In this document: piece after piece, positions 38,002 through 58,058 of the stretch
Numbering within the stretch: the first letter of the stretch is position 1
How the letters are laid out: each line of letters opens with the position of its first letter
Assembly: GCF_009856605.1 (NCBI RefSeq)
Contig: NZ_CP047242.1
Span: forward strand, 124,001-188,000
Source of the DNA: Trichormus variabilis 0441
Lineage (GTDB): Bacteria > Cyanobacteriota > Cyanobacteriia > Cyanobacteriales > Nostocaceae
Direction: 5' to 3'
Length of the DNA stretch: 64,000 nt
Notes under the pieces: generated by a model
Told to the model about the DNA's origin: nothing
Database searches by the model: none
What the model saw: only the letters and a program-made list of their open reading frames with translations
Made by a program: the position numbers and the translations under genes

Positions 38002-40071
38002 GTTTCTATTAACACAAATCCCTATCAGGGATTGAAAGTCTCTGCGGCAAACAGTGCCTATGCTGCGGGCGGGGTTTCTATTAACACAAATCCCTATCAG
38101 GGATTGAAAGTATATATTTCTCTATCGCAGACAATCTTCTGTTAATGCGTTTCTATTAACACAAATCCCTATCAGGGATTGAAAGATTCCTATCGTGATT
38201 GAACTGACTATCAACGTGAGGACTGGTTTCTATTAACACAAATCCCTATCAGGGATTGAAAGCCTAACTTACAACGCCCCACTAATTCACAATATTTGGT
38301 TTCTATTAACACAAATCCCTATCAGGGATTGAAAGGATAGAGATGATTGGTCGAGGGGAAATATCTCTGGCCAAGTTTCTATTAACACAAATCCCTATCA
38401 GGGATTGAAAGCACTTTAGACGAAACTAAAATATATAGCGATTGTACAAGTCAAGGTTTCTATTAACACAAATCCCTATCAGGGATTGAAAGCTAAAACA
38501 GTTCCCTCAAGAGTGTTCCCAATCAATGTTTCTATTAACACAAATCCCTATCAGGGATTGAAAGTTAATTTTGATGTTCCTTGGACGTGGTTTTAATTCG
38601 GGTTTCTATTAACACAAATCCCTATCAGGGATTGAAAGCTTGCATTTTGATAAAAAAGATAAGTAGAGTAAGTTTCTATTAACACAAATCCCTATCAGGG
38701 ATTGAAAGAGGAACAATTGTTCCTTAAGCCTATGCCCTCAGTTGTTTCTATTAACACAAATCCCTATCAGGGATTGAAAGGGCAGATAGTGGATGGGGCG
38801 GTAGATGTTCGGCAAGTTTCTATTAACACAAATCCCTATCAGGGATTGAAAGTACTCGCGATCGCTGCATCCTCAACGCCCAAAAGTTTCTATTAACACA
38901 AATCCCTATCAGGGATTGAAAGGTGGCTGGGACTAGAAGGGCTAGCCGAATCACTGGGTTTCTATTAACACAAATCCCTATCAGGGATTGAAAGTGGCAA
39001 TACACGGGAGTAGATGATACTTCTGAGGAGTTTCTATTAACACAAATCCCTATCAGGGATTGAAAGATCCAGTAGCAGTTCGCCCTCATCATTCCAGTAA
39101 GGTTTCTATTAACACAAATCCCTATCAGGGATTGAAAGCGGCGGCGCTGCGGCTGGTGGCGTACTCACAGATGTTTCTATTAACACAAATCCCTATCAGG
39201 GATTGAAAGCTTGCCATTTTGACCTTCCATATTGAACACCCCAATGTTTCTATTAACACAAATCCCTATCAGGGATTGAAAGACCTCAGTTGCTCTGTTC
39301 TTGATTCCGCACAGGTTTCTATTAACACAAATCCCTATCAGGGATTGAAAGATTTTAAAATCGGTGCAACCGGAGTTCGGCTCAAGTTTCTATTAACACA
39401 AATCCCTATCAGGGATTGAAAGGAGAGGCAGATCACCTTGTTCTATTAAGTGAGCGGTTTCTATTAACACAAATCCCTATCAGGGATTGAAAGAAAAGAT
39501 GTCGATCAAATGAAGCGGATAAATAGCCACAGTTTCTATTAACACAAATCCCTATCAGGGATTGAAAGTAAGAAGGAGAGGTGATGTTAATTCACTTAGT
39601 GGAACGTTTCTATTAACACAAATCCCTATCAGGGATTGAAAGAAAGACTTTTTAGCCGAGACGCAGGCAGGAAGAAGGTTTCTATTAACACAAATCCCTA
39701 TCAGGGATTGAAAGAGCTTCAACGGCGGCGGGACTAGCTACATTCCCGTTTCTATTAACACAAATCCCTATCAGGGATTGAAAGAAAAGAAATTTAGCGA
39801 CTTCTGCATTCTGTTCGGTTTCTATTAACACAAATCCCTATCAGGGATTGAAAGGCGTAAACTCTTCCGCCCTTAAATTGCGAGAAAAGGTTTCTATTAA
39901 CACAAATCCCTATCAGGGATTGAAAGGGAAGCGTCGCTAAAACTCAAGCTATTTTAGAAAGTTTCTATTAACACAAATCCCTATCAGGGATTGAAACGTG
40001 CTAGCCCTCTAATCTCTGGTATCCATCGCCCCAGGTTTCTATTAACACAAATCCCTATCAGGGATTGAAAC
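38002..40071 (+). CRISPR. Subtype I-D CRISPR array: 29 repeats, 28 spacers
   Basis: Repeats of 37 bp begin GTTTCTATTAACAC, have the hairpin core AATCCCTATCAGGGATT (7-bp stem) and end GAAAG. Starts run 38002, 38074, 38149, 38226 ... to 40035; start-to-start distance is 69-81 bp, so spacers are 32-44 nt. Repeats 1-27 end in G; repeats 28 (39961) and 29 (40035) end in C. Otherwise the repeats are essentially identical. Orientation follows the adjacent leader and cas2, and the predicted 8-nt tag is ATTGAAAG (ATTGAAAC for the last units). The array is long and uniform, which suggests an active locus. Spacer targets cannot be judged here. Confidence 0.97.
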
Positions 40072-40463: not shown

Positions 40464-41051
40464 CTATACCTTACTCTCTTTGTTCTCTTTCACATTATCT
40501 TGTTTGTCATCATTACCATTTTCTTGCTGTTTCTTCTCTTGCACAACCTGAGTAGCATAAACTTCTACATCTCGCTGAATAATTTCTTCCACTTGATTGG
40601 CAAAAGAACTAAATGCTTTATCGTGTGTTCCATAATTCACATAAGGGCCAGTTAATTGAAAGAATTGCCAACCTTGAGTTTTCAAAGATTCTGCCGTGCG
40701 GCGATAGTGTCGCCAGCGTTCTCCATAGTGGAAAAATTCCTCAACTGCTGCGCTAATTGCTACAATTTGGCTAAGAGAAAAAGTAGCCCAAACAAAAATT
40801 TCCCGCACCTCAGAACTGTTAATATTGAGACTTACTAAAGCAGGGAGAACCACACCCCCAATAATTGTGATCAATCGTAATCTGTAATATCTATTCCTTG
40901 ATTTACCTGCTTGTGCTTCCATCCACAGCATTTGATCTAACCAACGCGAAAACAGAAATTGTGTTTGTAATTCCGAGAGATTTAACGAATCAATTAAACT
41001 CGTAAACTTTCCCTTAAGAAATTCTTGATAATCATCCTTATTTGCCATCAT
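40464..41051 (-). CDS. SLATT / DUF4231 two-TM membrane protein
   Basis: A 195-aa protein with start ATG near 41051. It has two hydrophobic segments, ITIIGGVVLPALVSLNI and EIFVWATFSLSQIVAISAAV, separated by a short polar turn. Around them are SRWLDQMLWMEAQAGKSRNR, the typical soluble lead-in, and WRHYRRTAESLKTQGWQFFQ, the typical post-TM helix of DUF4231/SLATT proteins. The C-tail is charged and coiled-coil-like. SLATT proteins have been proposed as membrane effectors (pores) in nucleotide-triggered immunity. It lies 6 bp downstream of the SLOG gene, clearly in one operon with it, at the end of a CRISPR array. Confidence 0.85.
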   Translation of the reverse strand: MMANKDDYQEFLKGKFTSLIDSLNLSELQTQFLFSRWLDQMLWMEAQAGKSRNRYYRLRLITIIGGVVLPALVSLNINSSEVREIFVWATFSLSQIVAISAAVEEFFHYGERWRHYRRTAESLKTQGWQFFQLTGPYVNYGTHDKAFSSFANQVEEIIQRDVEVYATQVVQEKKQQENGNDDKQDNVKENKESKV

Positions 41052-41795: not shown

Positions 41796-42179
41796 TTATT
41801 CGCAGTAGAAGTTGCAACAACTTAAGTATTTTACGTAGTAATTCTCAGTTTCATGTCTAATATGCAATTCATAATCCTTATAACTTAATGTATTGAAATT
41901 GACATTAAATTCAGTTACATAGTAAAAATAACCAATTTTTCAGAGAATGAGTAGAGCTATAGCAAAAATTCTTGTAACTACTTCTGATAATAGGTTTATC
42001 TCTATTAACCAATGATTACCTACTACTATTTCCGAAGCATATACAGAAAAATCAATTACAAAAAACTATACATTAATCTAAAAAAATTACTATGTAAATT
42101 CTTGACAAAGTGTAGTGTATCGTTTTTAATTGGTAACAACTTATTCCCAGTCTTTAAGTAACATAACTTCAATTCCATA
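41796..42179. other. 384-bp divergent spacer between SLOG and tpsA
   Basis: Very AT-rich. It contains the candidate tpsA promoter (42102-42130) and must also hold the SLOG/SLATT promoter on the minus strand, for which I see no strong hexamers. No repeats or RNA genes seen. Confidence 0.5.
42102..42130 (+). promoter_or_regulatory. Candidate sigma-70 promoter for the tpsA cluster
   Basis: TTGACA (42102-42107), 17-bp spacer, TTTAAT (42125-42130): a full -35 and a 5-of-6 -10. The distance to the GTG start of tpsA is 49 bp. Confidence 0.6.
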
Positions 42180-44528
42180 GTGAATAACAGCAGGAACTTT
42201 GCTCAGTCCCAGGCTGGATTGCTCCTAGCAAAAGGAACCATCATCTCAGTGTCCGTAGTATCAATATTGACCAGTGATATTAGCTCGGCACAAATTACAC
42301 CGGATACGACTTTGGGTAATCAAAGCTCCCGTGTTACAACTGGTGTCAACATCAAAGGACATGAGACTGACTTAATTGAAGGTGGTGTCCAACGAGGAAG
42401 CAGCCTGTTTCACAGTTTTACAGAATTTAATGTCAACAACGGACAAAGAGTATATTTTGCCAACCCTACAGGCATTGCAGATATTTTTAGTCGAGTAACT
42501 GGGAGTAACGCTTCTCATATTTTGGGTACTTTGGGCGTACATGGTGCAGCTAATCTATATCTGCTCAATCCCAATGGTATTATTTTTGGGACAAATGCCC
42601 AGTTAGATATTCAAGGTTCTTTGTTTGCTACCACAGCCGACAGTTTTGAATTTCCTGATGGTAGTGAATTTAGTGCCACTAATCCCCAAGCACCACTGTT
42701 AACAATGAGTGTACCTGTAGGTGTACAGTATGGTTTACAGCAAACAGCAAGTATTACTAATCAAGGGAATTTGGTAACAGGAAAAAATTTGACGCTAAAT
42801 GCTGGAAGTTTAGATTTACAGGGCAAACTCGAAGCTGGTGGTGATATTTCCCTAAACAGTCAGCAAGGAACAATTGATATAAATGGGGAGATTATATCTA
42901 CAACTCCCAATGGAATTGCTGGAGATGTTACGATTCAAGCTGTAGGCGATATTCATATATTTAAGAACATAAAAGCCTCTAGCAACAGTGATATTATCAC
43001 TAATAATGATCAGAAAAGATATAATAATATCGCAATTAATTCTACCGGAGGTTCTATTTATTTAAATGGTTCTCAATTAAATGTTACTAACTCTGGTTCC
43101 GGCTTTGCCGGAGATATCATGATTAACGCTAATGACCAAATATCCATTCTCAATGGTAGTAAGATATCTAGTAATGGAAATATGGGACGGATATTTATTG
43201 GCGTTGGCGATAGTAATAAAATTACGCCTAAAAGAGTTAATATTGATAATTCTGGTCTGAATGTAGATAATTATTCATCTGATGGTAATACAGGAAGTAT
43301 AACTATTTACAGCTTTGAAGAAATTTCGATTAAAAATAGTTATATCTTAAGTGGCAGAGGCAGCATAGCTAGTAGCCGTAATGATGACGGCAGTGGGGCA
43401 AATGGTGGCACTGTAAGTATTGAATCACAAGGCTTAGTAAGTTTGGACAGTTTAGTAATATTAGCTGATGTTTTTTCTTCAGACCAAAATGGTACTGGAG
43501 GTGACATTAATATTTCCGCAGGCTCACTAATTATTAAGAATGGGTCTGAATTAGATACTTCCACATCTGGTAAAGGGAATGCGGGTGATGTGACTATTAC
43601 GGCTTCAGATTCTATTTTGTTAGACAATAGTAAAATTTCCAGTAGTCTTAGGAACGCAGCAACAGGTAAGGGTGGAAATATTGCAATTACAACTAATTTT
43701 TTGACTGCTGACAAAGGAACAATAGAAGCTCAGAGTCCAGGTAAGGGAGATGGTGGCAATATCAACATCACAACACTAAATTTGTGGCTTCGCCGCCAGA
43801 GTAAAATTTCCACTACAGCAGGTGCAGAAGGATCGGGTGGTAATGGAGGTAGCATCAGGATTAATGCTAAGGGTGGATTTATCGTAGCAGTACCATCAGA
43901 AGACAGTAATATCGTTGCTAATGCTTTTGGTGGTAATGGTGGCAAGATTAACATTAGTGCCAACCGTACTCTAGGATTTCAAAATCGGGGAAAGTTGAGT
44001 CCAAATGAACTAAACGCGATTATTACCAATGGCACTAGCGAAATTAGCGCCAGTTCTGATTATGGTGAAGACGGGGAGGTAGCGATTGAAACCCTGAGCA
44101 TTGACCCTACTCAGGGGCTAGTTGAATTGCCGACACAGTTAGTAGACCCTTCTCGATTAATTGCCCAAGGCTGTGGCTCTCCTAACAATAGGGTTGCTAA
44201 AGGGCAGAGTGAATTTGTGATTACTGGACGTGGGGGACTACCGCCTAGTCCTGATGATATGCTCAAGCCTGGGATTAGGTCGCCGGAATGGGTGGTAAAT
44301 AATACTAGAGATTACAGTAATAATTCTGAAAGCATAATTGAAAAAGAGATGAATTTAAAGCAATTATCGTCAAATACTTCTACTCCGTTAGTAGAAGCAG
44401 TGGGGATGGTTCACAATGCCAATGGAGATGTTGTTTTGACTACTCAACCAGCAGTCGCCACTCCACTACATTATTCGGGGTTATCTAGCCAAGTCTGTGG
44501 TCTTATTCAAGGGAATGTCAGAGAATGA
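42180..44528 (+). CDS. TpsA: two-partner-secretion exoprotein (filamentous haemagglutinin type)
   Basis: A 782-aa secreted beta-helix protein. The start is GTG 42180; no strong ribosome site is seen. An N-terminal signal (GLLLAKGTIISVSVVSILTS) precedes the TPS domain at about 40-190. Its landmarks are RGSSLFHSFTEFNVNNGQRV, FSRVTGSNASHILGTLGV and the NPNGIIFGTNAQLDI motif. A repetitive beta-helix (GGxGGxIxIxA-type strands) follows to about residue 660, with a C-terminal LIAQGCGSPNNR element seen in cyanobacterial TpsA proteins. It would be exported by the adjoining TpsB and form a fibre at the cell surface. The tpsA stop overlaps the tpsB start (ATGA). Minus-strand frames here are shadows. Confidence 0.9.
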   Translation: MNNSRNFAQSQAGLLLAKGTIISVSVVSILTSDISSAQITPDTTLGNQSSRVTTGVNIKGHETDLIEGGVQRGSSLFHSFTEFNVNNGQRVYFANPTGIADIFSRVTGSNASHILGTLGVHGAANLYLLNPNGIIFGTNAQLDIQGSLFATTADSFEFPDGSEFSATNPQAPLLTMSVPVGVQYGLQQTASITNQGNLVTGKNLTLNAGSLDLQGKLEAGGDISLNSQQGTIDINGEIISTTPNGIAGDVTIQAVGDIHIFKNIKASSNSDIITNNDQKRYNNIAINSTGGSIYLNGSQLNVTNSGSGFAGDIMINANDQISILNGSKISSNGNMGRIFIGVGDSNKITPKRVNIDNSGLNVDNYSSDGNTGSITIYSFEEISIKNSYILSGRGSIASSRNDDGSGANGGTVSIESQGLVSLDSLVILADVFSSDQNGTGGDINISAGSLIIKNGSELDTSTSGKGNAGDVTITASDSILLDNSKISSSLRNAATGKGGNIAITTNFLTADKGTIEAQSPGKGDGGNINITTLNLWLRRQSKISTTAGAEGSGGNGGSIRINAKGGFIVAVPSEDSNIVANAFGGNGGKINISANRTLGFQNRGKLSPNELNAIITNGTSEISASSDYGEDGEVAIETLSIDPTQGLVELPTQLVDPSRLIAQGCGSPNNRVAKGQSEFVITGRGGLPPSPDDMLKPGIRSPEWVVNNTRDYSNNSESIIEKEMNLKQLSSNTSTPLVEAVGMVHNANGDVVLTTQPAVATPLHYSGLSSQVCGLIQGNVRE

Positions 44529-46351
44529 ACCGCTTGCTGGATAGGCGATCGCCTAACGCATTTCCATACTATTCAGATCCACTCACAAAGCAAGCTCAAA
44601 ACCTTGTCAGGTGTGACAATCTTACAAAATCTCTTCATCGGATTCTGTTGACAAATCGCTCTCATATATTACTGTTGCTCACGGGGTTAATTCTCGGCTT
44701 TTATCCACAACGGTTGGCGGCTCAAGTAATTCCCAATGAGGTGAAACCGCCTTCAACTCAACCACTACCGGAACCAGCACCCCTACCAGCTTTACCGCCT
44801 CCAGAACAACTCCTACCCACTACACCACAGTCACCAACTCAGCCAGATGTTAATCCGCAGACATTAGCGGAAACATTGATAGTAGATCGGTTTGAGTTTG
44901 TGGGTAACACAGTTTTTAGTACCCAAGAACTAACAAATCTGACGGCTGGTTATCTCAAACGCCCCATTACCTTTAATGATTTACTGAAGATTCGTTCAGA
45001 GTTGACGAAATTATATATAGATAGAGGCTATGTCACCTCTGGGGTAATTCTTCCGCCGCAAACTGTGAAAGCGGGGGTATTAGTGATGCAGGTGGTAGAA
45101 GGAAGTTTAGAAAAAATCAATGTCACCGGTACGCGCCGCCTTAACCCCAGCTATATCCGCGATCGCCTGGCGATTGCTGCGGGTAAACCATTATCACGCG
45201 ATCGCCTACTCACAGGACTGCAACTATTACAACTCGATCCTTTAATTAAAAGCATATCTACAGATTTACAAGCCGGCATCCGTCCGGGTACGAATATTTT
45301 AGAAGTTAAAGTTACTGAAGCCGATTCTTTTAGTACTCAACTAGCGCTGGATAACCAACGTAGTCCCAGTGTGGGAAGTTTTCGGCGGCGCATTCATGTT
45401 AACGAAGCCAATTTGTTAGGGCTGGGAGATGGTTTAAATATCGGCTATACCAACACTGATGGTAGCAATGGCTTTGATGTGAGCTATAGTCTACCAGTTA
45501 ACCCGCGCAACGGTAAGCTGATTTTTAGCTATGGCAATACTCACAGTAATGTTATAGAAAATCCTTTTAACTCCTTGGATATTACATCCCAGTCCAGCTA
45601 CTACGAATTAACCTTCCATCAACCCCTGCTGCAAACTCCCAGCCAAGAATTCACTCTAGGAATTACCGCCAGCCACCAAAGAAGTCAAACATTTTTAGGT
45701 TTGGAAGATATCGGGCCGTTTCCTCTAGCGGTTGGTGCTGATGACGAAGGAAACACAAGGGTTTCAGCTATCCGATTTTTTCAGGAATGGAGTCAACGCA
45801 GTAGCCGACAAGTCATAGCCGCGCGATCGCAATTTAGTTTCGGGTTGGGTATTTTAGATGCCACAATCAATAACGATGAACCGGATAGCCGTTTTTTTAG
45901 CTGGCGTGGACAAGCTCAATGGTTGCGCCAGTTAGCGCCTGATACTTTACTGCTGCTACAAGCTGATATGCAGTTAGCAGATAGAAAATTGTTGGGAGTG
46001 GAACAATTTGGTATCGGTGGACAAACAAGTGTACGCGGATATCGTCAAGATCAGTTGTTAACAGATAATGGCGTGCAAGCAACCGTCGAACTTCGCCTAC
46101 CGATTCTCCGCATTCCTCAAGGAGTCTTGCAAATCACGCCTTTTGTAGATGTCGGTACAGGCTGGAATCATGGCGGCGCAAATGCTGATAATACTTTAGT
46201 CAGTACGGGTATGGGTTTGCAGTGGCGACAGGGTAATAATTTCAGTGCGCGTTTAGATTGGGGTATTCCTCTGACATCTGTTGATTCCCAGAGGAAAGAA
46301 ACATGGCAAGAAAACGGTTTGTATTTCTCTATTATCTATAGGCCTTTTTAG
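44525..46351 (+). CDS. TpsB: ShlB/FhaC-type outer-membrane transporter
   Basis: A 608-aa protein with an N-terminal cytosolic/signal stretch (SHILLLLTGLILGFYPQRLA), a Pro-rich linker (PPSTQPLPEPAPLPALPPPE), two POTRA domains (about 110-270: VDRFEFVGNTVFSTQELTNL, VMQVVEGSLEKINVTGTRRL) and a 16-strand barrel. The barrel carries the family motif VRGYRQDQLL near residue 500 and ends in FSIIYRPF with a terminal aromatic residue. It recognises and secretes the TpsA fibre. A real signal peptide with a long N-terminal extension is likely; the true start may be an internal one. A 4-bp overlap with tpsA couples translation. Confidence 0.92.
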   Translation: MNRLLDRRSPNAFPYYSDPLTKQAQNLVRCDNLTKSLHRILLTNRSHILLLLTGLILGFYPQRLAAQVIPNEVKPPSTQPLPEPAPLPALPPPEQLLPTTPQSPTQPDVNPQTLAETLIVDRFEFVGNTVFSTQELTNLTAGYLKRPITFNDLLKIRSELTKLYIDRGYVTSGVILPPQTVKAGVLVMQVVEGSLEKINVTGTRRLNPSYIRDRLAIAAGKPLSRDRLLTGLQLLQLDPLIKSISTDLQAGIRPGTNILEVKVTEADSFSTQLALDNQRSPSVGSFRRRIHVNEANLLGLGDGLNIGYTNTDGSNGFDVSYSLPVNPRNGKLIFSYGNTHSNVIENPFNSLDITSQSSYYELTFHQPLLQTPSQEFTLGITASHQRSQTFLGLEDIGPFPLAVGADDEGNTRVSAIRFFQEWSQRSSRQVIAARSQFSFGLGILDATINNDEPDSRFFSWRGQAQWLRQLAPDTLLLLQADMQLADRKLLGVEQFGIGGQTSVRGYRQDQLLTDNGVQATVELRLPILRIPQGVLQITPFVDVGTGWNHGGANADNTLVSTGMGLQWRQGNNFSARLDWGIPLTSVDSQRKETWQENGLYFSIIYRPF

Positions 46352-46389
46352 TTTGGGGATTGGATATGAGAGATGAGGATTGGGGAGTG

Positions 46390-49224
46390 ATGGTTAGATT
46401 TAAGGAATTTTTGTGGAAACAGCGCCAGAAATTTAGGTATGGAATTTTGGCTTTTGTGATGGCTTTACTTTGTATATTTGTTTCGCCTGTGGTGGCTCGT
46501 GATAGGGGAAGTCCAGGGTTGACTGCATCTGTAGTTGCTTCTGACTTTTCACGGGATCTGGAAAACCCCTCTCCAAACCTCTCACGCCAGTTGCTTCAAG
46601 TCGGCAAAGCCGCCCAACGCACTGGCTCCCCTGCAAGGAGAGAGGCTTTAAAATTTCCCCCCTCCCTAGTAGGGAAGGGGGTTAGGGGGTTAGGTTTCGC
46701 GTTAGCTTTTCCACATAACGTGAAAAGTCAGGTAGTTGCTTCTGTTCCTCAAGAGGAAGAAGCTAAAAATCTTTATACAGCAGGGCGATTTGCAGAAGCA
46801 GTACAGCTATTACAACAAGTTTTGCCAGCTTACCAAACAAGTGGCGATACGGTGGCACAGGCGGTAATTTTGAGTAATTTGGCGCTGAATTTGCACCAAT
46901 TAGGACGCATCGGTGAAGCAACTGAGGCAATTGAAAAGGCGATCGCTATTTTACAGACAAGTCCCAATTCACCACAACGCCTGTCAATTTGGGCGCAAGT
47001 GTGGGATGTCAAAGGTAGTTTGGAACTAGCCCAGGGTAAGGCGGAAGCTGCTTTGTCTGCTTGGGAAAAGTCTGCATTGCTCTATCAACAATTAAAAGAC
47101 CACAATAAAGCTACCCTCGCCCAAGTTAATCAAGCCCAGGCTTTGCAGACTTTGGGACTCTATCGCCGAGAAATTACTCTCCTCCAGAATTTGACAACAT
47201 CTCTGGCAAAACAACCAGACTCCCTCTCTAAGGCTGCTAGTTTCCGTAACCTGGGTGAGGCTCTTATACTTGCAGGTGATCTTAAACAGGCAGAAGTAAA
47301 TTTACAAACTAGTCTGAAGATTGCTCAACAACTACAATCACCAGAAGCCATTGCCTCAGCTTACCTGAGTTTAGGTAATCTCGCTTATCTTCCCGGTAAC
47401 AGCACACAGCAAAAAAACATCGCTCTCAATTATTACCAGCAAGCATCGGTTTTATCAACTACTGCAACTACAAAAATCTCGTCCCAATTGAATCGGTTAC
47501 GTCTGTTGATTGATTTGGAACAATGGTCAAACGCCCAAGCATTATATTCCGAAATTCAAAGTCAAATTGCTAACTTACCTTTGGGACGTTCTGCTATTTA
47601 CGCTCAGGTAAATTTGGCTCAAAGCCTTCTGAAATTAACAAAAAAATTCCCTAACCCCAGCCCCGAAACAATTGGTAAAATCTTGGCTGTGGCACGTCAG
47701 CAAGCAGAGCAATTACAAGATGTGCGAGCCGGGTCTTTTGTCTTAGGTAATCTTGGACACTTGTATGAACTATCTCACCAATGGTCTATAGCCCAAGATT
47801 TGACCAGAAAGGCGCTGAATTTGTCCCAGTCGATTCACGCACCAGATATTGACTATCGTTGGCAGTGGCAACTGGGGCGGGTTCTCTGCCAAGGTAAACG
47901 CCAGTGTGAACAGCAGGGTGATATGCAGGGAGCCATTGCCGCCTATACAGAAGCATTTAATACTTTACAAAATATCCGTACGGATTTAATTGCCACAAAT
48001 AAAAATGTGCAGTTTTCTTTCCGGGAAACAGTAGAGCCTGTATATCGCCGTTTAGTAGATTTGTTACTCCAATCCTCAGCACCGAGTCAGGACAACCTAA
48101 TACAAGCTCGCAACGTGATTGAAGCATTACAAGTGGCAAAATTGCAAAACTATTTGCAACAAACTTGTCAAGATACTCGATTAGAACTTGATCAGGTGAT
48201 TGATTCTAAAGACCAAACATCGGCAATTATCTATGCAATTATTTTGGATGACCGTGTAGAAGTTATCCTCAAGCGACCGAATCAAAAACTTGATCATTAT
48301 GCTACCAAGCCCCAAGAGAAAATTGAAGAGGTTGTAAAGCGTCTGTATCAAAATCTGCAAGAAGTGGGTAGTTATGAAGAAGTGCAACAGGATGGTCAAC
48401 AAGTTTATAGCTGGTTGATTCAACCAATAGAAAAAAAGCTAAAGGAAAGTAAAATTAAGAACTTGGTTTTTGTCTTGGATGGCTTTTTACGTAAAATTCC
48501 GATGGCTAGCCTTTATGATGGTCAGCAATATCTAGTAGAAAAATATGCTGTCTCCTTAGCTTTGGGGTTACAAGTCCGTGAACCAAAGCCATTAAACAGG
48601 TCAAAAATGCAGGTTTTAGCCGCCAGCTTGACTGAACCACCTAATAAACCAGGATTTTCCGGCTTTTCTCGATTAGCAAATGTTAATCAAGAAGTGAGGG
48701 AAATTAAAAATACAGGAATAGCGGTTCATTGGATTACTGACAAAGAATTTACCACCAAAAACTTTAACCAAAAACTGAACACCTCTAATTTTGATGTCAT
48801 CCACTTAGCAACCCACGGTCTATTTAGTGCAGATAGAGAAAATACTTTTGTGGTGACAGCAGATGGAAAGTTAAAGATAGATGATTTTGATCAATTGTTT
48901 ATTGACCAACAGCAAAACAGCACTCATAAAATTGAACTACTGATTCTGAGCGCCTGTCAGACAGCTACGGGTAACGACCAAGCAGTAATGGGGATTGCGG
49001 GAGCTACAGTCCAAGCAGGTGCTAGTAGTGCGATCGCCAGTTTGTGGGATCTAGACGATGAAGCTAGCGTTCCATTCATTAAGGAATTTTATCAACATCT
49101 AGGACAACCAAACATTAGCAGAGCCGAAGCACTGCGTTTAGCACAGCAAGCTCTACTCAAAAACCCAAAATACGATCATCCTCGTTATTGGGCCCCCTAT
49201 GTCTTAATTGGTAGTTGGCTTTGA
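46390..49224 (+). CDS. Exported TPR-CHAT caspase-like protein
   Basis: A 944-aa protein. The start is chosen at ATG 46390 because a GGGGAG ribosome site precedes it and the following residues form a signal peptide (RYGILAFVMALLCIFVSPVVA). A TTG at 46360 is less likely. Layout: signal; a 60-residue repeat-derived insert; several TPR-like helical repeats (about 120-620, for example AVQLLQQVLPAYQTSGDTVA); then a CHAT domain (about 650-940). The CHAT catalytic His is in IHLATHGLFS and Cys in LLILSACQTATGN, followed by AGATVQAGASSAIASLWDLD. The product is probably a periplasmic or surface protease. It lies 38 bp after tpsB, where cyanobacterial TPS clusters often carry CHAT genes. Confidence 0.9.
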   Translation: MVRFKEFLWKQRQKFRYGILAFVMALLCIFVSPVVARDRGSPGLTASVVASDFSRDLENPSPNLSRQLLQVGKAAQRTGSPARREALKFPPSLVGKGVRGLGFALAFPHNVKSQVVASVPQEEEAKNLYTAGRFAEAVQLLQQVLPAYQTSGDTVAQAVILSNLALNLHQLGRIGEATEAIEKAIAILQTSPNSPQRLSIWAQVWDVKGSLELAQGKAEAALSAWEKSALLYQQLKDHNKATLAQVNQAQALQTLGLYRREITLLQNLTTSLAKQPDSLSKAASFRNLGEALILAGDLKQAEVNLQTSLKIAQQLQSPEAIASAYLSLGNLAYLPGNSTQQKNIALNYYQQASVLSTTATTKISSQLNRLRLLIDLEQWSNAQALYSEIQSQIANLPLGRSAIYAQVNLAQSLLKLTKKFPNPSPETIGKILAVARQQAEQLQDVRAGSFVLGNLGHLYELSHQWSIAQDLTRKALNLSQSIHAPDIDYRWQWQLGRVLCQGKRQCEQQGDMQGAIAAYTEAFNTLQNIRTDLIATNKNVQFSFRETVEPVYRRLVDLLLQSSAPSQDNLIQARNVIEALQVAKLQNYLQQTCQDTRLELDQVIDSKDQTSAIIYAIILDDRVEVILKRPNQKLDHYATKPQEKIEEVVKRLYQNLQEVGSYEEVQQDGQQVYSWLIQPIEKKLKESKIKNLVFVLDGFLRKIPMASLYDGQQYLVEKYAVSLALGLQVREPKPLNRSKMQVLAASLTEPPNKPGFSGFSRLANVNQEVREIKNTGIAVHWITDKEFTTKNFNQKLNTSNFDVIHLATHGLFSADRENTFVVTADGKLKIDDFDQLFIDQQQNSTHKIELLILSACQTATGNDQAVMGIAGATVQAGASSAIASLWDLDDEASVPFIKEFYQHLGQPNISRAEALRLAQQALLKNPKYDHPRYWAPYVLIGSWL
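46540..46735 (+). repeat. Dispersed repeat captured in-frame within the CHAT gene
   Basis: This stretch has the look of noncoding Nostoc repeats (AAACCCCTCTCCAAACC, AGTCGGCAAAGCCGCC, CCTCCCTAGTAGGGAAGG) yet is translated in-frame as about 60 low-conservation residues between signal peptide and TPRs (for example LQVGKAAQRTGSPARRE, LVGKGVRGLGF). CCTCCCTAGTAGGGAAGG-type inverted pairing is visible near 46661-46680. Confidence 0.65.
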
Positions 49225-49574
49225 TGACTGATCTCTAGAATTTATATTCTTGCCGTTTTACTTAAGTATGATTACCATTGTTTTAGTATACTTTATTCTT
49301 TCAACATATATCACTTGAATATCTTTGACCCAGGCGATCGCCATTAGGGACTTCCAGATAAAAATTATCCACAATGTAGGGTGCGTCAGTATGAATAATT
49401 TATGAGTATAGCTAGCTCATATCGCACTGACGCACCCCGCCACACCATCAATCTCGCATCATTTATTTTGAATTTTTGGCGCACCCTACTCTGGGAGTTC
49501 TCCGCAGGAGTAGCCGTAGCCTATGAGTGAATTTTGTAGCTTGCTTCCTGTAGGGTATTTTGAATTGGTTTAAT
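49225..49574. other. 350-bp spacer with inverted-repeat element and repeat cassette
   Basis: It holds a 12-bp perfect inverted repeat, GGGTGCGTCAGT (49379-49390) and ACTGACGCACCC (49426-49437), around a loop containing TATAGCTAGCT. A second copy of part of it, GGCGCACCCTAC, occurs at 49478-49489. A dispersed repeat cassette (TCTCCGCAGGAGTAGCCG, GCTTCCTGTAGGGTATTTTG) runs up to the next gene. It resembles a small nonautonomous mobile repeat. No promoter is clear. Confidence 0.6.
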
Positions 49575-52500
49575 ATGAATAAATTTAAAAGTGCATTTAT
49601 TTCTTATGGACGAGCAGATAGCAAAGCCTTTGCAACTAAGCTATATCAGCGATTTGTAGAAGCAGGACTAGAAATTTGGTTTGACCAAAACGATATTCCT
49701 TTAGGTGTGGATTTCCAAAACCAAATAGACGACGGAATTGAGAAATCAGACAATTTTCTGTTTATCATTGCGCCTCATTCAGTCAACTCTCCCTATTGTG
49801 GTAAAGAAATAGATTTAGCACTCCGCCGGAATAAACGCATTATTCCCTTGCTGCACGTAGAGCAAATTACTCAAGAAACTTGGCAACAACGCAACCCTGG
49901 ACGTGACGCTAGTGAGTGGGAAAAATATCAAGCCAAAGGGTTACATTCCAGTTTTCCTAATATGCACTCAGCTATTAGTAAGATTAACTGGGTATACTTC
50001 CGCGAAGGTATAGACGACTTTGAGAAATCATTGGCGGGACTGTTGGAGTTATTTCGCCGCCATCAGGATTATGTACATCAACACACCTATTTTTTAGCCA
50101 AAGCCCTGGAATGGGAGCAAAAACAACAACAATCACAATACCTGTTAATTGGTGAAGAACGAGAACAAGCTGAAAATTGGCTAAAAATTAGGTTTAAAGA
50201 TGAACAAGCGCCCTGTGAGCCAACCGATTTACACTGCGCCTTTATTTGTCAGAGTATCAAGAATGCTAACAACCTGATGACTCAGGTGTTCCTCTCCTAC
50301 TCCGAAAAAGAGAGGATGTTTATGGAAAAAATTGCCAAAATTTTGATGCGAGAAAGCTTTACAGTTTGGACTAACAAAACAGATATTCAATCTGGAGCAG
50401 ATTTTACCGAGTCGATTAATCGAGGTATTGAGGAAGCAGATAATGTGGTTTTTCTCTTGTCGCCAGCCTCTCTGCAATCAGAATACTGTCAACTGGAACT
50501 AACTTATGCTTTTTCTCTCAAAAAGCGGATTATTCCCCTGTTGCTTGAACCAGTGGATCTAGAGCAGATTCCTGTGGAATTACGTATTTTGCAGTTCATC
50601 GACTTTACAGATCAAGAAGAGGAGGGGAAAGAATCTGCCGATACTGATAGGCTCATTAATGTGCTGCGTCGAGATGCGGCTTACTACGAGCAACATAAAA
50701 TCTTACTAGCAAAAGCTCTCAAGTGGGAACGACAAAAACGTAATCCTAGTATTTTGTTGCGTAATCACAATCTGCGTAACGCTGAAGCCTGGTTAAAGAT
50801 AGCTCAACAAAACACACAACATCCACCCATACCTTTACAAACAGAATTCATCACTGAAAGCAGCAAGCAACCGCCAGAAGCGGCGCTGGATGTATTTATT
50901 TCCTACTCTCGTGCTGACTCTGACTTTGCCCGTAAACTTAACGATACCCTGCAAATTCAAAACAAGACTACTTGGTTTGATCAGGAGAGTATCGCCTCTG
51001 GTACAAATTTTGAGCAAGAGATTTACCGAGGAATAGAAAGCGCCAACAATTTCTTATTTATTATTTCGCCTAAATCTATCAGTTCACCCTACTGCGTGAC
51101 TGAAGTAGAATATGCGATGAATTTAAATAAGCGAATCGTGACCGTTTTATATCGGGACATAGGAGAAGCAACCCTTCATCCTGGGTTAGCAAAAGTGCAG
51201 TGGATTGATTTCAGCCCACGAGACACAGACTTTCTGACTAAATTCGGGGAACTAACCAGAACATTAGATTCAGATCCAGAATATGTGCGATCGCACACTC
51301 GGATTTTTCTGAGGGCAAAGGAGTGGGAAGATCACAATCGGGACAATAGCTTCTTACTCCGGGGCAAAGATTTGCTAGCCTCTGAGGAATGGTTGAAGCA
51401 ATCTGATCATAAACAACCAGCCCCCACAACTTTACAATTAGATTATCTCGCTGCCAGTCAAGCTCTCCCCTATCGCAAAATTAAGCTGCGTAGTGTCTTG
51501 TTGACTAGCTTGGCTGTGACAACAATAGTTTTTATTGCCAGGTTCCTTGGATTCACTCAGTCCTTAGAACTAGCAATGTATGACCGGATGATGTCGTTAC
51601 GTCGTGATGAACCACAGGATGAACGATTTTTAATGGTTGATGTTGATCCTCAAAGTCTTGAGGCGTTGAATGAAGACAAAAGATATTCGGGTGGTAGAGG
51701 TTCAATTCCTGATCAAGCTTTAGACGATGTACTCAAAATTCTTTCCCAGTCCCAACCCAGTGTCATTGGGTTAGATTTTGTCCGTGATTTTCATGCCGAA
51801 GGTAGCCTAAAAGAGCGTTTGCAGCAAACTAAAAACTTATTTACGGTCTGTAAGAACAGTTATGTAAGGGATAGTGAAAAAATTCGTGGCTTTAAACATC
51901 CCCCAGAAGTGCCTTTAGCGCGAATTGGGTTTAGCGACTTGGTTGATGATGATGCTAAAGGTGGTCGTTTTGTGCGCCGACAATACTTGATGCAAAGTCC
52001 AGACCCTAAATATTGCAATACAAGGGAAGCTTTTAGTTTAGTAATTGCTCGTCACTATCTAGAAGCCCAAGGTCAAAAGTACATTTCTCCTCTCGATATC
52101 AAGAGCAAAAGATATGTCCAGGATATGCAGTTCGGTAAAACCCGCATTCCCCAATTACTAGGAAAAGGAGGTGCTTACCAGGATATAAATAACCAGTTGG
52201 AAGGATATCAAACAATGCTCAAATATCGTCTTTCTGGAGGTGTTCCCTACAATTTTGCCCCTAGAAAGAATATTTTAGAAGTTTTAAACAATCAGGTTGC
52301 TCCTGAACAAATTAGAAACAAAATTGTACTCATTGGCTTTACTGATAGACAAACCAGACAAGCTGATTACTGGAGTACGGTCTATGGTGATGTTGCAGGC
52401 GTGACACTGCATGGACAAATGATCAGTCAGATCGTCAGTGCTACTTTAGATAATCGCCAACTCATCTGGTGGTGGCCGCTTGGTTATGAAACACTCTGGA

Positions 52501-52721
52501 TGTTTGGTTGGGCTTTGGTAGGGGGTATTGTTTGTTGGCGATTTAACCGCACTCTCTATATAGGTATAGCGGTGGTTGGATCTATTGCCTGTCTCTTCAT
52601 CATTTGCTCAGTAATTTTAGTCTATCAAAGCGGTTGGATACCTTTTAAACCACCGTTTTTGGCATTACTGGGTACTGGGGCAGGCGTATTATATTTAACT
52701 AATAACCTCCGTAAAAATTAA
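49575..52721 (+). CDS. Triple-TIR/CHASE2 membrane protein
   Basis: A 1048-aa protein with start ATG 49575. It has three TIR domains: about 3-130 (SAFISYGRADSKAFATKLYQ), about 235-365 (QVFLSYSEKERMFMEKIAKI) and about 437-560 (DVFISYSRADSDFARKLNDT). Each keeps the Glu that matches the NADase catalytic residue (E78 in SPYCGKEID, E308 in SEYCQLELT, E510 in SPYCVTEVE). Each TIR is followed by a 60-70-aa module with HTxxLxxAxxWE, LLRGxxLxxAExWL. Then a TM helix and an extracytoplasmic CHASE2 sensor (SLELAMYDRMMSLRRDEPQD, IGLDFVRDF) with C-terminal TM helices. A likely role is an outside-in signal that drives cytosolic TIR activity (inference). It lies in the TPS/CHAT cluster, where CHASE2 proteins usually carry other outputs. 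Confidence 0.9.
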   Translation: MNKFKSAFISYGRADSKAFATKLYQRFVEAGLEIWFDQNDIPLGVDFQNQIDDGIEKSDNFLFIIAPHSVNSPYCGKEIDLALRRNKRIIPLLHVEQITQETWQQRNPGRDASEWEKYQAKGLHSSFPNMHSAISKINWVYFREGIDDFEKSLAGLLELFRRHQDYVHQHTYFLAKALEWEQKQQQSQYLLIGEEREQAENWLKIRFKDEQAPCEPTDLHCAFICQSIKNANNLMTQVFLSYSEKERMFMEKIAKILMRESFTVWTNKTDIQSGADFTESINRGIEEADNVVFLLSPASLQSEYCQLELTYAFSLKKRIIPLLLEPVDLEQIPVELRILQFIDFTDQEEEGKESADTDRLINVLRRDAAYYEQHKILLAKALKWERQKRNPSILLRNHNLRNAEAWLKIAQQNTQHPPIPLQTEFITESSKQPPEAALDVFISYSRADSDFARKLNDTLQIQNKTTWFDQESIASGTNFEQEIYRGIESANNFLFIISPKSISSPYCVTEVEYAMNLNKRIVTVLYRDIGEATLHPGLAKVQWIDFSPRDTDFLTKFGELTRTLDSDPEYVRSHTRIFLRAKEWEDHNRDNSFLLRGKDLLASEEWLKQSDHKQPAPTTLQLDYLAASQALPYRKIKLRSVLLTSLAVTTIVFIARFLGFTQSLELAMYDRMMSLRRDEPQDERFLMVDVDPQSLEALNEDKRYSGGRGSIPDQALDDVLKILSQSQPSVIGLDFVRDFHAEGSLKERLQQTKNLFTVCKNSYVRDSEKIRGFKHPPEVPLARIGFSDLVDDDAKGGRFVRRQYLMQSPDPKYCNTREAFSLVIARHYLEAQGQKYISPLDIKSKRYVQDMQFGKTRIPQLLGKGGAYQDINNQLEGYQTMLKYRLSGGVPYNFAPRKNILEVLNNQVAPEQIRNKIVLIGFTDRQTRQADYWSTVYGDVAGVTLHGQMISQIVSATLDNRQLIWWWPLGYETLWMFGWALVGGIVCWRFNRTLYIGIAVVGSIACLFIICSVILVYQSGWIPFKPPFLALLGTGAGVLYLTNNLRKN

Positions 52722-52744
52722 GCTAACAAACAGGAGATAGAAAA

Positions 52745-53521
52745 ATGATCCGTCAACAATTATCACATAGGCAACAAAAAATTTTTCTCTGCATCTTGAC
52801 CACGGTCTTTTATTTGAGTTTTCTGTCCCCTGTTTTTCTTCAGCCAGCCCAAGCACAAAACGTATTTGAGCGTATTGGTCGGCTGTTTAGCAATTCCCGA
52901 CCAGAGGGGAATGCTTCTGGACGTTCACGGGGAGGGGCGACGCGATCGCAATGCTCTCAAATAGATAAAAATACCCTGATCGCATTAGTTCCCCAGAGCA
53001 ATGAAGGCTTGACTACTCAGGATCATCCTCAGTTCTTATTCTATTTACCTTTTGGTGGATCTTCCCAGTCTCCTCCAGCCAAATTTAGGTTATTAAATGA
53101 ACAGAAAAAGTCTGTTTTGACCAAGCCTCTACCATTTTCTTTACCAGAAACAAAAGGTATCGTCAGTATTACTCTTCCTGCTACCGAAAAACCCCTATTG
53201 ATTGGACAAAGATATCATTGGTACCTCAACATCACTTGTGTGAATGAGCAGGGACTTAACACAAATATTAGTGTAGATGGTTGGATTAAACGAGTTGAAG
53301 CGGCTTCTCAGAGGGTAGTGCCAATCAAGCACATAGGATATCAATCACAGTACATTCCTTATGCGGAAAATAATATTTGGTATGAAACTGTTAGTAAAAT
53401 TGCTACAAATCGCGCTACTCATCAGCAAGAATGGTCTAGTTTATTAGCATTATTTGAACTTGAAGAATTTGCTACTTCTCCCATTTATGAACTCAAATTG
53501 CAACAGCCTTCAACACTATAA
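52745..53521 (+). CDS. DUF928 exported protein
   Basis: A 258-aa protein. A signal peptide (KIFLCILTTVFYLSFLSPVF, cut near QPAQAQ) is followed by a basic Ser/Gly linker and a DUF928 domain. DUF928 features seen: LIALVPQSNEGLTTQDHPQF, LFYLPF, LPATEKPLLIGQRYHWYLNI and the cysteine strand ITCV with DGWIKRV. The function is unknown; DUF928 proteins are cyanobacterial and often accompany CHAT, CHASE2 and TPS genes (family knowledge). It lies 24 bp after the TIR/CHASE2 gene with an AGGAG ribosome site, so it is in one operon with it. Confidence 0.88.
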   Translation: MIRQQLSHRQQKIFLCILTTVFYLSFLSPVFLQPAQAQNVFERIGRLFSNSRPEGNASGRSRGGATRSQCSQIDKNTLIALVPQSNEGLTTQDHPQFLFYLPFGGSSQSPPAKFRLLNEQKKSVLTKPLPFSLPETKGIVSITLPATEKPLLIGQRYHWYLNITCVNEQGLNTNISVDGWIKRVEAASQRVVPIKHIGYQSQYIPYAENNIWYETVSKIATNRATHQQEWSSLLALFELEEFATSPIYELKLQQPSTL

Positions 53522-54330: not shown

Positions 54331-56175
54331 ATGAGCCTCAGTCAATTGGTCAATGTTGATTCTGACACAGTATCTAAAACCGTTTATGATGCTGTCATAG
54401 TTGGAACAGGGGTAGCTGGAGCCATTGTTGCCAAAGAATTGAGTCAACAGGGCAAGAAGGTTTTAATCATTGAAGCTACAGTACACAAAGATTTAACTCT
54501 TGCAGGCTTTCAAAGTTATGTTGATACCTTCTACAAAGCGGTGGATAAAAATCCTAACTCTCCCTATCCCGCTAACGCTAATGTTCCCAGCCCCACTGAT
54601 TACAACGACTATTTTATAGAGAAGGGACCCATGCCTCTTGCGGGTTCCTACACCAGGGTTCTGGGCGGAACAACCATGCACTGGGAAGCAAAAACCCCAC
54701 GGATGTTACCGGAAGATTTCAAGTTATCCAGTACCTACGGACAAGGTCTTGATTGGCCGATTAGCTATCACGACCTTGAGCCGTATTACCGCAAAGCCGA
54801 GCATGAAATGGGCGTTTGTGGAGACGTAGAAGAGCAGAAAAAACTAGGCCTTGAATTTCCCCAAGACTATGTTTTTCCCATGGAAAAGCTCCCCCCCTCT
54901 TACTTGGATCAAAAAGTCATTGAGAAAGTCGATGGCACCAAGGTTGAACTCTATGGCAAGACTCACACAATCAGCTTTGCTACATTTCCTCAAGCTCGTA
55001 ATGGAGTACCTAACCCTAAATATGATCAAGGTAACCTCTTTGTTCCCGATGGAGTTACTACTGTCCATCCTGTTCAATATGGTGAACGTTGCCAAGGAAA
55101 TGCTAACTGTGTTCCTATCTGTCCAGTTCAGGCAAAATATGATGCTCGCAGAACTTTAAGTAAAGCCTTTGAAACAGGTAGAGTTCATGTACTCTACCAA
55201 GCAGTGGCTTATAAGCTGGAATACGATCGCCAAAATGGTCGCATCACTGCCATTCACTACAAAAACTATAAAAAACCCAACTCTAGCGATTACACCACAG
55301 GAATCGCTAAGGGAACCGTATTTGTCCTAGCGACTAATGCAGTCGAAAACGCTCGGCTATTGCTCGGCTCTGACTTGCCTAACACCAGTGGATTGATAGG
55401 ACGCTATTTAATGGATCACCCCTTCACCTTAGCTTGGGCTTTGATGCCTGAAGTCACTGGTACTATGCGGGGGCCTCTTGTAACATCAGGAATTGGCACA
55501 TTCCGTCAAGGTGATTTTCGTAAGAAACAATCCGCCTTTGCCGTAGACATTCACAACGATGGTTGGGGATGGGCTACCGGATCACCTAAGAGTGAAGTAG
55601 AAGACGCGATCGATAACAAAAACAAATATGGACAAGAACTGCGTCAGACATTGATTAGTCGAATTTCCCGACAACTGTTGTTGGCTTTCATGTGTGAATT
55701 ACTCCCTGAGTACGGTAACCGAGTCACTATCGATCCCAGACACAAAGATAAACTGGGTAATTATCGTCCCGTCATTAATTTCAACCTACCCGACTACAGT
55801 CGTAGAACCCTTGCTTACACCAGAAAAGTCTCCCGCGTCATCTTCGAGCGTTTAGGTGCAGAAGACTATACTCACTACGATCCTCAAGACCCTGCCTATT
55901 TTGAGTTTGAGGGTGAAGGCTACGTATACAAAGGTGGAAACCACTTTTCGGGAACTCATATTATGGGAACAACGCCCTCGAATTCAGTTGTTGATAGTTA
56001 TCTGCGTTCTTGGGATCATAAAAATCTTTTCCTCGTCGGCGCAGGAAGTATGCCCACCATTGGTAGTTCCAATACAACCTTAACCATTGCCGCATTGAGT
56101 TTTAGAACTGCCGAGCATATCCTGCAAGAATTAAATTCTTATAATTTGCCAGCTGCTAATTTGCAAGCTCGCTAA
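54331..56175 (+). CDS. GMC-family FAD oxidoreductase (large-subunit-like)
   Basis: A 614-aa flavoprotein. The FAD-binding GTGVAG (about 25-30) sits in VIVGTGVAGAIVAKEL with LIIEA after it. RVLGGTTMHWEAKTPR is the GMC signature near residue 110. A four-Cys segment GERCQGNANCVPICPVQAKY follows. The C-terminal catalytic half has HFSGTHIMGT and GSSNTTLTIAALSFR with the His/Asn pair. Such proteins oxidise alcohol or sugar hydroxyls; the cysteine-bearing loop is typical of the large subunit of three-part sugar dehydrogenases. No signal peptide. It leads a probable operon with a ferritin-like gene and a small-subunit-like gene. Confidence 0.88.
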   Translation: MSLSQLVNVDSDTVSKTVYDAVIVGTGVAGAIVAKELSQQGKKVLIIEATVHKDLTLAGFQSYVDTFYKAVDKNPNSPYPANANVPSPTDYNDYFIEKGPMPLAGSYTRVLGGTTMHWEAKTPRMLPEDFKLSSTYGQGLDWPISYHDLEPYYRKAEHEMGVCGDVEEQKKLGLEFPQDYVFPMEKLPPSYLDQKVIEKVDGTKVELYGKTHTISFATFPQARNGVPNPKYDQGNLFVPDGVTTVHPVQYGERCQGNANCVPICPVQAKYDARRTLSKAFETGRVHVLYQAVAYKLEYDRQNGRITAIHYKNYKKPNSSDYTTGIAKGTVFVLATNAVENARLLLGSDLPNTSGLIGRYLMDHPFTLAWALMPEVTGTMRGPLVTSGIGTFRQGDFRKKQSAFAVDIHNDGWGWATGSPKSEVEDAIDNKNKYGQELRQTLISRISRQLLLAFMCELLPEYGNRVTIDPRHKDKLGNYRPVINFNLPDYSRRTLAYTRKVSRVIFERLGAEDYTHYDPQDPAYFEFEGEGYVYKGGNHFSGTHIMGTTPSNSVVDSYLRSWDHKNLFLVGAGSMPTIGSSNTTLTIAALSFRTAEHILQELNSYNLPAANLQAR

Positions 56176-56338
56176 CACTTGTCATCAATAAAAATAACGC
56201 TCTATCAGATAAAAGCTTCAACACTTTGAATCCAAAAATTCATCAGAATTGAAACTTAGATATAAATAGAGTTCTCTGGCTACTTGATGACACTCCCTAG
56301 TACCCTTTACGAAGTCGAAAAACCTCGCAAATAAAACT

Positions 56339-57439: not shown

Positions 57440-57486
57440 CTAAACTTTGAATTGGGATTTAAAATTTTTGCGGAGGTAAATAACGG

Positions 57487-57963
57487 ATGGATATTAATGC
57501 ACCTGAATTTAAGGAGTATTTCCTTAATCTTTCAGTAGTTCTTACAGGGTTTTCCAAGTTTCAATTGCAGGGAACAGGTTTTTCTACTCTTTATTTTGAA
57601 ACCATTCGAGACATCATTGGTGGAGATATATTTGGAGAACTTTTAACAACTTTTCATAAGTTGGAACTGGAAAAAAAAGAGAAAAACCACGAATCTATTA
57701 AACAGATATTGGCATCAGAAAAATTTGGTCCCATCGCCCGCAATATCATTAAGGTTTGGTACATAGCTACTTGGTATGCACTGCCACAATCTTGGCGGGA
57801 CGCTTTTGGCACCAAAGAAAAAGATGGAACCTTTGTAATCAGCGCACAGGCCTATCCAGAAGGACTTTTATGGCCGGCGATCGGTGTTAACCCACCTGGC
57901 GCAAAAGGCCAGGGATACGCAACTTGGAGCGAACCTCCTTTAGTTAGCCTTACTAAAAGCTAA
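57487..57963 (+). CDS. Small-subunit-like protein of a FAD sugar dehydrogenase
   Basis: A 158-aa protein. The start, ATG 57487, has a GGAGG site (57472-57476). It fits the small subunit of membrane sugar/sorbitol dehydrogenases: EYFLNLSVVLTGFSKFQLQG near the start, FGPIARNIIKVWYIATWY in the middle, and YPEGLLWPAIGVNPPGA then GYATWSEPP at the end. Family members carry a Tat signal; none is seen here, so the complex may be cytosolic. It probably helps fold or stabilise the GMC subunit. Confidence 0.7.
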   Translation: MDINAPEFKEYFLNLSVVLTGFSKFQLQGTGFSTLYFETIRDIIGGDIFGELLTTFHKLELEKKEKNHESIKQILASEKFGPIARNIIKVWYIATWYALPQSWRDAFGTKEKDGTFVISAQAYPEGLLWPAIGVNPPGAKGQGYATWSEPPLVSLTKS

Positions 57964-58058
57964 CATCTCTTTTGTGTAGAGTTTAACTCACACAACTGCC
58001 AAAAAAACCGTCTTTGGTTCTGAAAAAATTGCAACATTTTCTATTCTCAAGAACAAAC

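Follow-up and report, generated by a model that had tools for sequence, protein, structure and literature searches.

The stretch of Trichormus variabilis 0441 DNA analysed here, called the window, is 64,000 nucleotides long (contig NZ_CP047242.1, positions 124,001 to 188,000) and carries a cluster of seven genes that may form a surface-triggered TIR signalling pathway. Five of them, tpsA, tpsB, TPR-CHAT, TIR-TIR-TIR-CHASE2 and DUF928, stand in line on the forward strand. A preliminary description, made from the letters alone, had reported this row, and the open reading frames (ORFs) and the Pfam matches agree with it. The remaining two genes, coding for a SLOG and a SLATT protein separated by 6 bp, are on the opposite strand, with the SLOG gene 384 bp upstream of tpsA. 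The gene identities and the layout (table 1) are solidly established.

The genes tpsA and tpsB overlap by 4 bp, as described previously, and the combination of a TPS exoprotein with a POTRA/ShlB transporter identifies a two-partner secretion (TPS) pair. The 38-bp gap reported before the CHAT gene is obtained with the likely start at 46390 and not with the start of the longest ORF at 46360; the gap of 350 bp before the TIR gene fits the likely ATG at 49575. DUF928 does adjoin the TIR-CHASE2 gene, at a spacing of 23 bp rather than 24. The SLATT gene is 8.5 kb away from the TIR gene. A simple scan of the window for promoters and terminators gave no excess and thus says nothing about operon structure. 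Hydropathy places hydrophobic segments at residues 60-78 and 85-103 of SLATT, 28-46 of the CHAT protein, and 636-654 and 998-1016 of TIR-CHASE2. An inverted element, GTGCGTCAGT...ACTGACGCAC, was spotted by eye in the gap before the TIR gene (49379-49438).

Table 1. Genes and domain of the cluster, in window coordinates.
Feature	Position	Strand	Matches and remarks
SLATT / DUF4231 two-transmembrane protein, 195 amino acids (aa)	40464..41051	-	Pfam DUF4231 5.1e-36, SLATT_3 2.7e-11; proposed effector
SLOG, LSDAT_prok family, 245 aa	41058..41795	-	proposed receptor of a TIR-made ADP-ribose-like signal
TpsA exoprotein, 782 aa, TPS secretion domain	42180..44528	+	Pfam TPS 1.1e-43; N-terminal hydrophobic segment
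TpsB outer-membrane transporter, POTRA + ShlB barrel	44525..46351	+	Pfam ShlB 3.6e-32, POTRA_2 4.8e-22
TPR-CHAT caspase-like protein	46360..49224 (likely start 46390)	+	Pfam CHAT 2.4e-58, TPR_12 2.8e-18
TIR-TIR-TIR-CHASE2 membrane sensor, 1048 aa from ATG	49575..52721 (ORF 49560-52721)	+	Pfam: three TIR_2 stretches 3.9e-85, CHASE2 5.9e-52, ThsB_TIR 4e-14
CHASE2 domain, predicted extracytoplasmic, with transmembrane segments	51519..52529	+	converted from genome place C1:175519-176529
DUF928, exported Ig-like protein, CHASE2 partner	52745..53521	+	Pfam DUF928 3.0e-47; N-terminal hydrophobic segment

The TIR-CHASE2 protein was searched against 388 genomes of the class, all searches of these genomes being taken as one set (same settings, count and handles), and the neighbourhoods were annotated with profiles built for this analysis. 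The resulting 40 TIR-CHASE2 loci are the window and 39 fetched places, many of them on short contigs; L117 (no CHASE2), L001 (same plasmid as L088) and two partial places in genomes G338 and G347 were left out. Within 8.4 kb, 31 of the 40 have TPS/TpsB, 23 have CHAT and 26 have DUF928. The association recurs in many families, and recurrence in other genomes was the test that the preliminary description had named beforehand. Twenty loci anchored on DUF928 contain TPS/TpsB in 10 cases, CHAT in 10 and CHASE2 in 12. A chance neighbourhood is ruled out by 20 random places, which contain TPS in two cases and CHASE2, CHAT, DUF928, TIR, SLOG or SLATT in none. The nearest locus, in Nostoc parmelioides FACHB-3921 (L219), keeps the five genes and the upstream pair, with DNA identity of about 92-94% in long alignments and 81% in one short piece of tpsA. 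Among 17 close relatives (mostly Nostocales, with some metagenome-assembled genomes (MAGs); L225 is the same record as L079, and five of the 17 contigs are too short to contain the whole set), all 17 have DUF928, while TPS/TpsB is found in 14, CHAT in 13, SLOG in 10 and SLATT in eight. The gene order and the strands vary among these relatives, and the set remains together. Beyond DUF928, L219 was the only one of the 17 whose flank aligned under the blastn settings used.

The 350-bp gap raises the question of whether two operons, one for CHAT and TPS secretion and one for TIR-CHASE2 and DUF928, are joined here by position only; three loci with TIR-CHASE2 and DUF928 and no TPS nearby (L082, L088 and L228) would agree with this. 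The comparison with 12 CHASE2 loci carrying other heads (by Pfam, 10 CHAT-CHASE2 and one kinase-CHASE2, L131; L003 was unscanned) points the other way. These 12 loci have TPS/TpsB in one case, CHAT in seven and DUF928 in all 12 within 8.4 kb, and the difference in TPS/TpsB (31/40 versus 1/12, p 2.7e-5) indicates that TPS accompanies the TIR head. With a set that also stays together through changes of order and strand, we consider the two-operon explanation very improbable.

In the genome of the window, which has 10 CHASE2 matches, each of the six DUF928 matches lies no more than 1.3 kb from one of them. A constant pairing of DUF928 with TIR-CHASE2 is nevertheless rejected by the 26 of 40 loci that have it. 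Several of the loci devoid of DUF928 have an adjoining ORF of about 340-420 aa, which is a TPR protein in the four scanned (L094, L101, L103 and L106). The kinase-CHASE2 gene at L131:9291-11495 adjoins DUF928, so DUF928 appears to serve CHASE2 proteins of several heads. In L127 (by Pfam) and L003 (by annotation), an other-head CHASE2 gene is accompanied by DUF928, DUF1822 and a sigma-70-like gene; this is a sister system whose output may be transcriptional.

A tree of 93 CHASE2 domains separates the 56 that carry TIR from the 37 that do not by one branch (support 92/99, just under the 95/80 mark of the tool), recovered in 93 per cent of 200 bootstrap trees. The TIR side forms a group (100/98) with 14 rows, among which is the CHAT-CHASE2 set. 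The TIR on CHASE2 had been considered unusual; with all 56 such sequences falling together on the same side of this branch, a local accident is rejected, and the fusion is a conserved group instead. The number of TIRs per intact ORF is one, three or five. In 26 three-TIR rows, some of them near-duplicates (L001 and L088 being the same protein), a glutamate aligned with what we take, from SARM1 and AbTIR, to be the NADase glutamate is present in the first copy of all 26 and in the second of 24; it was scored by counts in the alignment column, as a strict motif expression missed many rows. The window protein has it in all three TIRs, which are predicted to cleave NAD+. Triple-TIR proteins without CHASE2, at 44-45% identity, were also seen in Bacteroidota (L002, a Bernardetia plasmid; L236, a Cytophagales MAG) and may reflect transfer between phyla.

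The preliminary description had overlooked the SLOG and SLATT genes. SLOG/SLATT is found within 8.4 kb at eight of the 40 TIR-CHASE2 loci and at six of 20 loci in which this TIR array has a different fusion partner (a WD40 C-terminus in the three scanned); these 20 are high-scoring places and not a random draw, and the window is counted as positive by its SLOG, its SLATT being 8.5 kb from the TIR gene. None occurs near the 12 other-head CHASE2 loci, nine other CHASE2 places of the window's own genome, the 20 DUF928-anchored loci or the 20 random places. The pooled count is 14/60 for TIR-anchored against 0/61 for other loci (p 2.3e-5). In the reverse direction, TIR is near eight of 20 evenly sampled SLOG places and 0/20 random ones (p 0.003), with SLATT at nine of the SLOG places; four of the eight TIR-positive places already belong to the TIR-anchored set. 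In the close relatives, SLOG is upstream of tpsA (L219, L220, L222, L223, L225 and L227), downstream of DUF928 (L230, L233 and L235), or, in L221, between the TIR gene and an inverted tpsA.

The association is more pronounced at the level of genomes. There are 60 genomes with a TIR region (chosen by matches starting before query residue 600, so that a few have a single TIR), and 57 of them contain an LSDAT SLOG; the other three are listed as 78, 83 and 90% complete. Among the 328 genomes without a TIR region LSDAT occurs in 46, including nine of the 32 with a close CHASE2 only. The bias persists within three families (15/15 TIR versus 4/11 CHASE2-only genomes, 7/8 versus 0/8 and 3/3 versus 3/8; Cochran-Mantel-Haenszel p 1e-6), a stratification that leaves out families with zero or one CHASE2-only genome. 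Two other defence families, run on 48 of the 60 TIR genomes and the 32 others (80 of 92), are unbiased: GmrSD is present in 34/48 versus 24/32 and SIR2_2 in 8/48 versus 3/32, with LSDAT in 46/48 versus 9/32 of the same 80 genomes. A general defence load does not account for the LSDAT bias. DUF4231 occurs at any score in 54/60 TIR and 14/32 CHASE2-only genomes (35/60 and 5/32 at E<1e-20) and within 3 kb of at least 59 of 122 LSDAT places, from which second fragments of split matches are omitted. The link between TIR and SLOG is well supported by this co-occurrence. With an LSDAT SLOG as their genome-wide partner, often accompanied by SLATT, the TIRs are unlikely to act by themselves. The earlier idea of surface-triggered signalling remains reasonable, although its output is probably not the TIRs by themselves.

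These data bear on a simpler explanation, in which the five forward-strand genes are a self-contained system of envelope stress or surface signalling, the TIRs deplete NAD+ or act as a scaffold, and SLOG-SLATT, an unrelated neighbour, merely occurs in the same large, defence-rich genomes. It would account for the 32 of 40 TIR-CHASE2 loci without SLOG/SLATT in the 8.4 kb (some on short contigs), for the other-head CHASE2 proteins that pair with DUF928 and CHAT without SLOG, and for a position next to a type I-D CRISPR system. It does not predict that LSDAT should distinguish TIR from CHASE2-only genomes (57/60 versus 9/32) where the two control families fail to, that 10 of 17 close relatives should keep SLOG in the cluster at varied positions, or that SLOG/SLATT should adjoin the TIR array in six of 20 loci where this array is fused to a different C-terminus. 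We regard this explanation as unlikely, though deserving of consideration, and prefer a seven-gene pathway that includes SLOG and SLATT.

For such a seven-gene pathway the SLOG protein is the candidate receptor. Alignment and fold searches both assign it the MHR1/2 fold of TRPM2, and it adjoins a two-transmembrane SLATT gene in the layout of a SLOG-SLATT effector pair. Three ADP-ribose contacts of TRPM2 were compared (Y295, R302 and R358, human numbering). The position of the stacking aromatic residue (W143) and the arginine of the GSGR motif (R196), aligned to TRPM2 contacts, are invariant in 20/20 SLOG rows, whereas none of these rows has an arginine at the R302 position; an ADP-ribose-like ligand may be bound. 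The 50 matches listed for each of two fold searches were mostly TRPM chains; the SLOG of ThsA was not among them, which is not evidence of its absence.

SLATT is predicted to be a pore gated by a nucleotide signal, according to the accessible text of two reports (PMC7159879, PMC9503650). The examined loci contain 28 distinct SLATT ORFs, 17 of them of at least 330 aa, and 12 of these 17 have a domain of a wall hydrolase. It is Phage_lysozyme in L221, L222, L233 and L235; C39 in L160, L164 and L166, two of which also have GH19; and GH19 only in L098, L099, L101, L104 and L174, the GH19 matches being partial and a few bits above the cut-off. By Pfam, no hydrolase domain is present in the long ORFs of L080, L201 (twice) or the additional SLATT that L160 and L166 each have. 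The occurrence of unrelated hydrolases at one position argues for lysis as the output. The SLATT-lysozyme ORFs (L221:6518-7930, L222:14288-15694, L233:15862-17316 and L235:15241-16635) are each followed by a 448-aa ORF, and three of these loci also have a 111-aa ORF; Pfam gave no match for the 448-aa ORFs of L221 and L233 or the 111-aa ORF of L221. Several components are found together in L098, L101 and L104, which have a five-TIR CHASE2, a second three-TIR protein (of the WD40 type in L101), a TPS-CHAT fusion, SLATT-GH19 and SLOG.

The envelope arm is outlined by the distribution of hydrophobic stretches. An N-terminal stretch is present in 20/23 CHAT, 33/43 DUF928 and 7/13 TPS-CHAT ORFs, and is absent from all 56 TIR-CHASE2 and all 17 SLOG ORFs. 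From the positions of the hydrophobic segments, the TIRs are predicted to face the cytosol, with the CHASE2 loop, CHAT and DUF928 on the outside, a topology that fits the envelope and cytosolic sides drawn previously. An exported CHAT, also suggested before, gains support from 15 ORFs in which an N-terminal TPS domain is fused to a C-terminal CHAT (Pfam agrees in the seven scanned; two are cut by region ends and 13 are in TIR-CHASE2 loci); with a two-partner secretion signal attached, such a CHAT should pass through the outer membrane. A His-Cys dyad, which we presume to be catalytic, is conserved in 54/54 aligned CHAT domains, near-duplicates included. The DUF928 model (pLDDT 81.8) is a beta-sandwich with C-terminal helices. 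Its best Foldseek matches, CopC (1.4e-3) and PapD (2e-3), allow it to be called an Ig-like sandwich and are too weak for a function to be read from the fold. One metagenome protein, P0116, combines CHASE2, a cyclase and DUF928 in a single frame and has a hydrophobic segment ahead of DUF928; this fusion is weak support, as it is a single protein and possibly the result of a lost stop.

The same arm could be read as allorecognition between filaments, with no role for phages. The TPS exoprotein would be a tag or an effector processed by CHAT, and TIR-CHASE2 would kill the mismatched or damaged cell. A presumed occurrence mainly in filamentous cyanobacteria, the very different lengths of the TPS exoproteins of close relatives (from 768 to 1560 aa) and the TPS-CHAT fusions are compatible with such a role. 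We nonetheless judge it improbable.

Several known systems resemble parts of the cluster. In type I Thoeris, a TIR enzyme (ThsB) is likewise coupled to a SLOG-containing partner (ThsA, SIR2-SLOG), and the window TIRs match ThsB models (Pfam ThsB_TIR 4e-14; PADLOC ThsB1|ThsB up to 2.8e-24). SIR2-SLOG ThsA is activated by isomers of cyclic ADP-ribose, as given in the accessible text of PMC11204291. The SLOG of the window differs in belonging to the LSDAT/TRPM clade and in being stand-alone rather than fused to SIR2; the candidate output is a two-transmembrane SLATT, and the TIRs are on a membrane CHASE2 sensor beside a secretion apparatus. SIR2, Macro and ThsA models gave no match in the seven proteins at E 0.001, and SIR2_2 is absent from the whole genome of the window (G000). 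The PADLOC models matched in the seven proteins were 19 of TIR-type proteins and a single one of TPR, with none for SLOG, SLATT, TPS, TpsB or DUF928.

The SLOG and SLATT families were reportedly named in a 2015 paper of the Burroughs, Kaur, Iyer and Aravind group. TIR + SLATT and SLOG + SLATT neighbourhoods like those described here have been predicted by these authors and co-workers; the portions of their publications available to us mention neither a CHASE2, TPS, DUF928 or CHAT arm nor a fusion of SLATT to lysozyme, GH19 or C39. TIR + SLATT pairs occur in firmicute phages, according to the accessible text of PMC9503650. TRPM2 unites MHR1/2 and a TRP channel in one protein, whereas here the sensor and the two-transmembrane SLATT are two bacterial genes. 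Toll-like receptors share the sequence of extracytoplasmic sensor, transmembrane segment and cytosolic TIR, and the window TIR matches that of TLR6 (2.1e-6); in the window there is no leucine-rich repeat ectodomain, and the TIRs are N-terminal, in tandem, and keep the catalytic glutamate. The likeness is best seen as an analogy of layout, not of descent. The CHAT-CHASE2 loci of cyanobacteria are on neighbouring CHASE2 branches and share DUF928 as a partner (12/12 other-head loci); they differ by a CHAT head (10 of 11 scanned), by TPS/TpsB in only one of 12, and by DUF1822 and a sigma-70-like gene in the two examined. A literature search, with thin coverage of subscription papers, found no description of the present cluster and none of a CHAT domain with two-partner secretion.

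Taken as a whole, the seven-gene locus may be an envelope-to-cytosol alarm, that is, an envelope-sensing, Thoeris-like pathway ending in damage to the membrane or the wall; we hold the chances of this to be evenly balanced. TpsA would be secreted through TpsB, and the exported CHAT and DUF928 would be at or beyond the periplasm. CHASE2, in the inner membrane, would read the state of the TpsA, CHAT and DUF928 parts or a ligand, and clustering would switch on the N-terminal cytosolic TIR array. The TIRs would convert NAD+ into an ADP-ribose-like signal, SLOG would bind it, and the two-transmembrane SLATT would damage the membrane. Lysis or arrest of the cell would be the end point, because SLATT carries a wall hydrolase in several relatives. 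A more specific version, which we put forward tentatively and at somewhat less than even chances, is receptor-to-channel signalling triggered at the surface: CHASE2 would watch TPS/CHAT/DUF928, the TIR messenger would be read by a TRPM2-type SLOG that opens SLATT, the hydrolase-fused SLATT of relatives would be a built-in holin plus endolysin, and the whole would amount to a Thoeris-like branch in which the envelope is sensed instead of a cytosolic part of a phage. We infer the NAD+ chemistry, the SLOG ligand, the gating of SLATT, the trigger, the target of CHAT and the purpose in defence; Thoeris-like chemistry is probable, and the trigger at the envelope and the defence purpose may be proposed.

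Several observations weigh against the proposed pathway. The glutamate is lost from the third TIR copy in 13 of the 26 three-TIR rows, and the R302 equivalent, placed by its spacing from Y295, is an arginine in none of the 20 SLOG rows. The SLATT of the window is the short form, in which Pfam finds no hydrolase domain, and a hydrolase fused to SLATT, being predicted as cytosolic (two transmembrane segments), would need the pore to reach the wall. No complete PADLOC system matched the seven window proteins. There is no partner near L087, despite a flank of about 7-8 kb, or near L109, on a short contig. With the eight TIR-CHASE2 loci (8/40) alone, the SLOG/SLATT association has p 0.043 against random places and 0.17 against the 12 other-head loci. 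Of 87 TIR-region places, 14 have LSDAT within 12 kb; at the others, SLOG would act in trans. The 46 genomes with LSDAT and no TIR region show that SLOG has other partners. The p-values are optimistic, because the genomes are related and many are incomplete.

The surroundings of the cluster contain further recognizable elements. A type I-D CRISPR system (Cas3', Csc3, Csc2, Csc1, Cas6 and Cas1d) occupies 24137-37411, and behind its cas operon, directly before the SLATT/SLOG pair, there is an array of 29 CRISPR-DR5 repeats (38002-40071). A lone CRISPR-DR5-like repeat lies apart from the array at 26427-26462 on the reverse strand. Downstream (54331-62813) there are oxidoreductase-like and multicopper-oxidase-like genes, below the family cut-offs.

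If the proposed pathway is correct, one short, clonable cluster would contain a bacterial receptor of Toll-like layout together with a messenger receptor that shares the fold of TRPM2. DUF928, exported CHAT and LSDAT SLOG proteins would gain a common context, and SLATT a testable lytic output. The signalling of TIR immunity would then be placed under the control of events at the cell surface.

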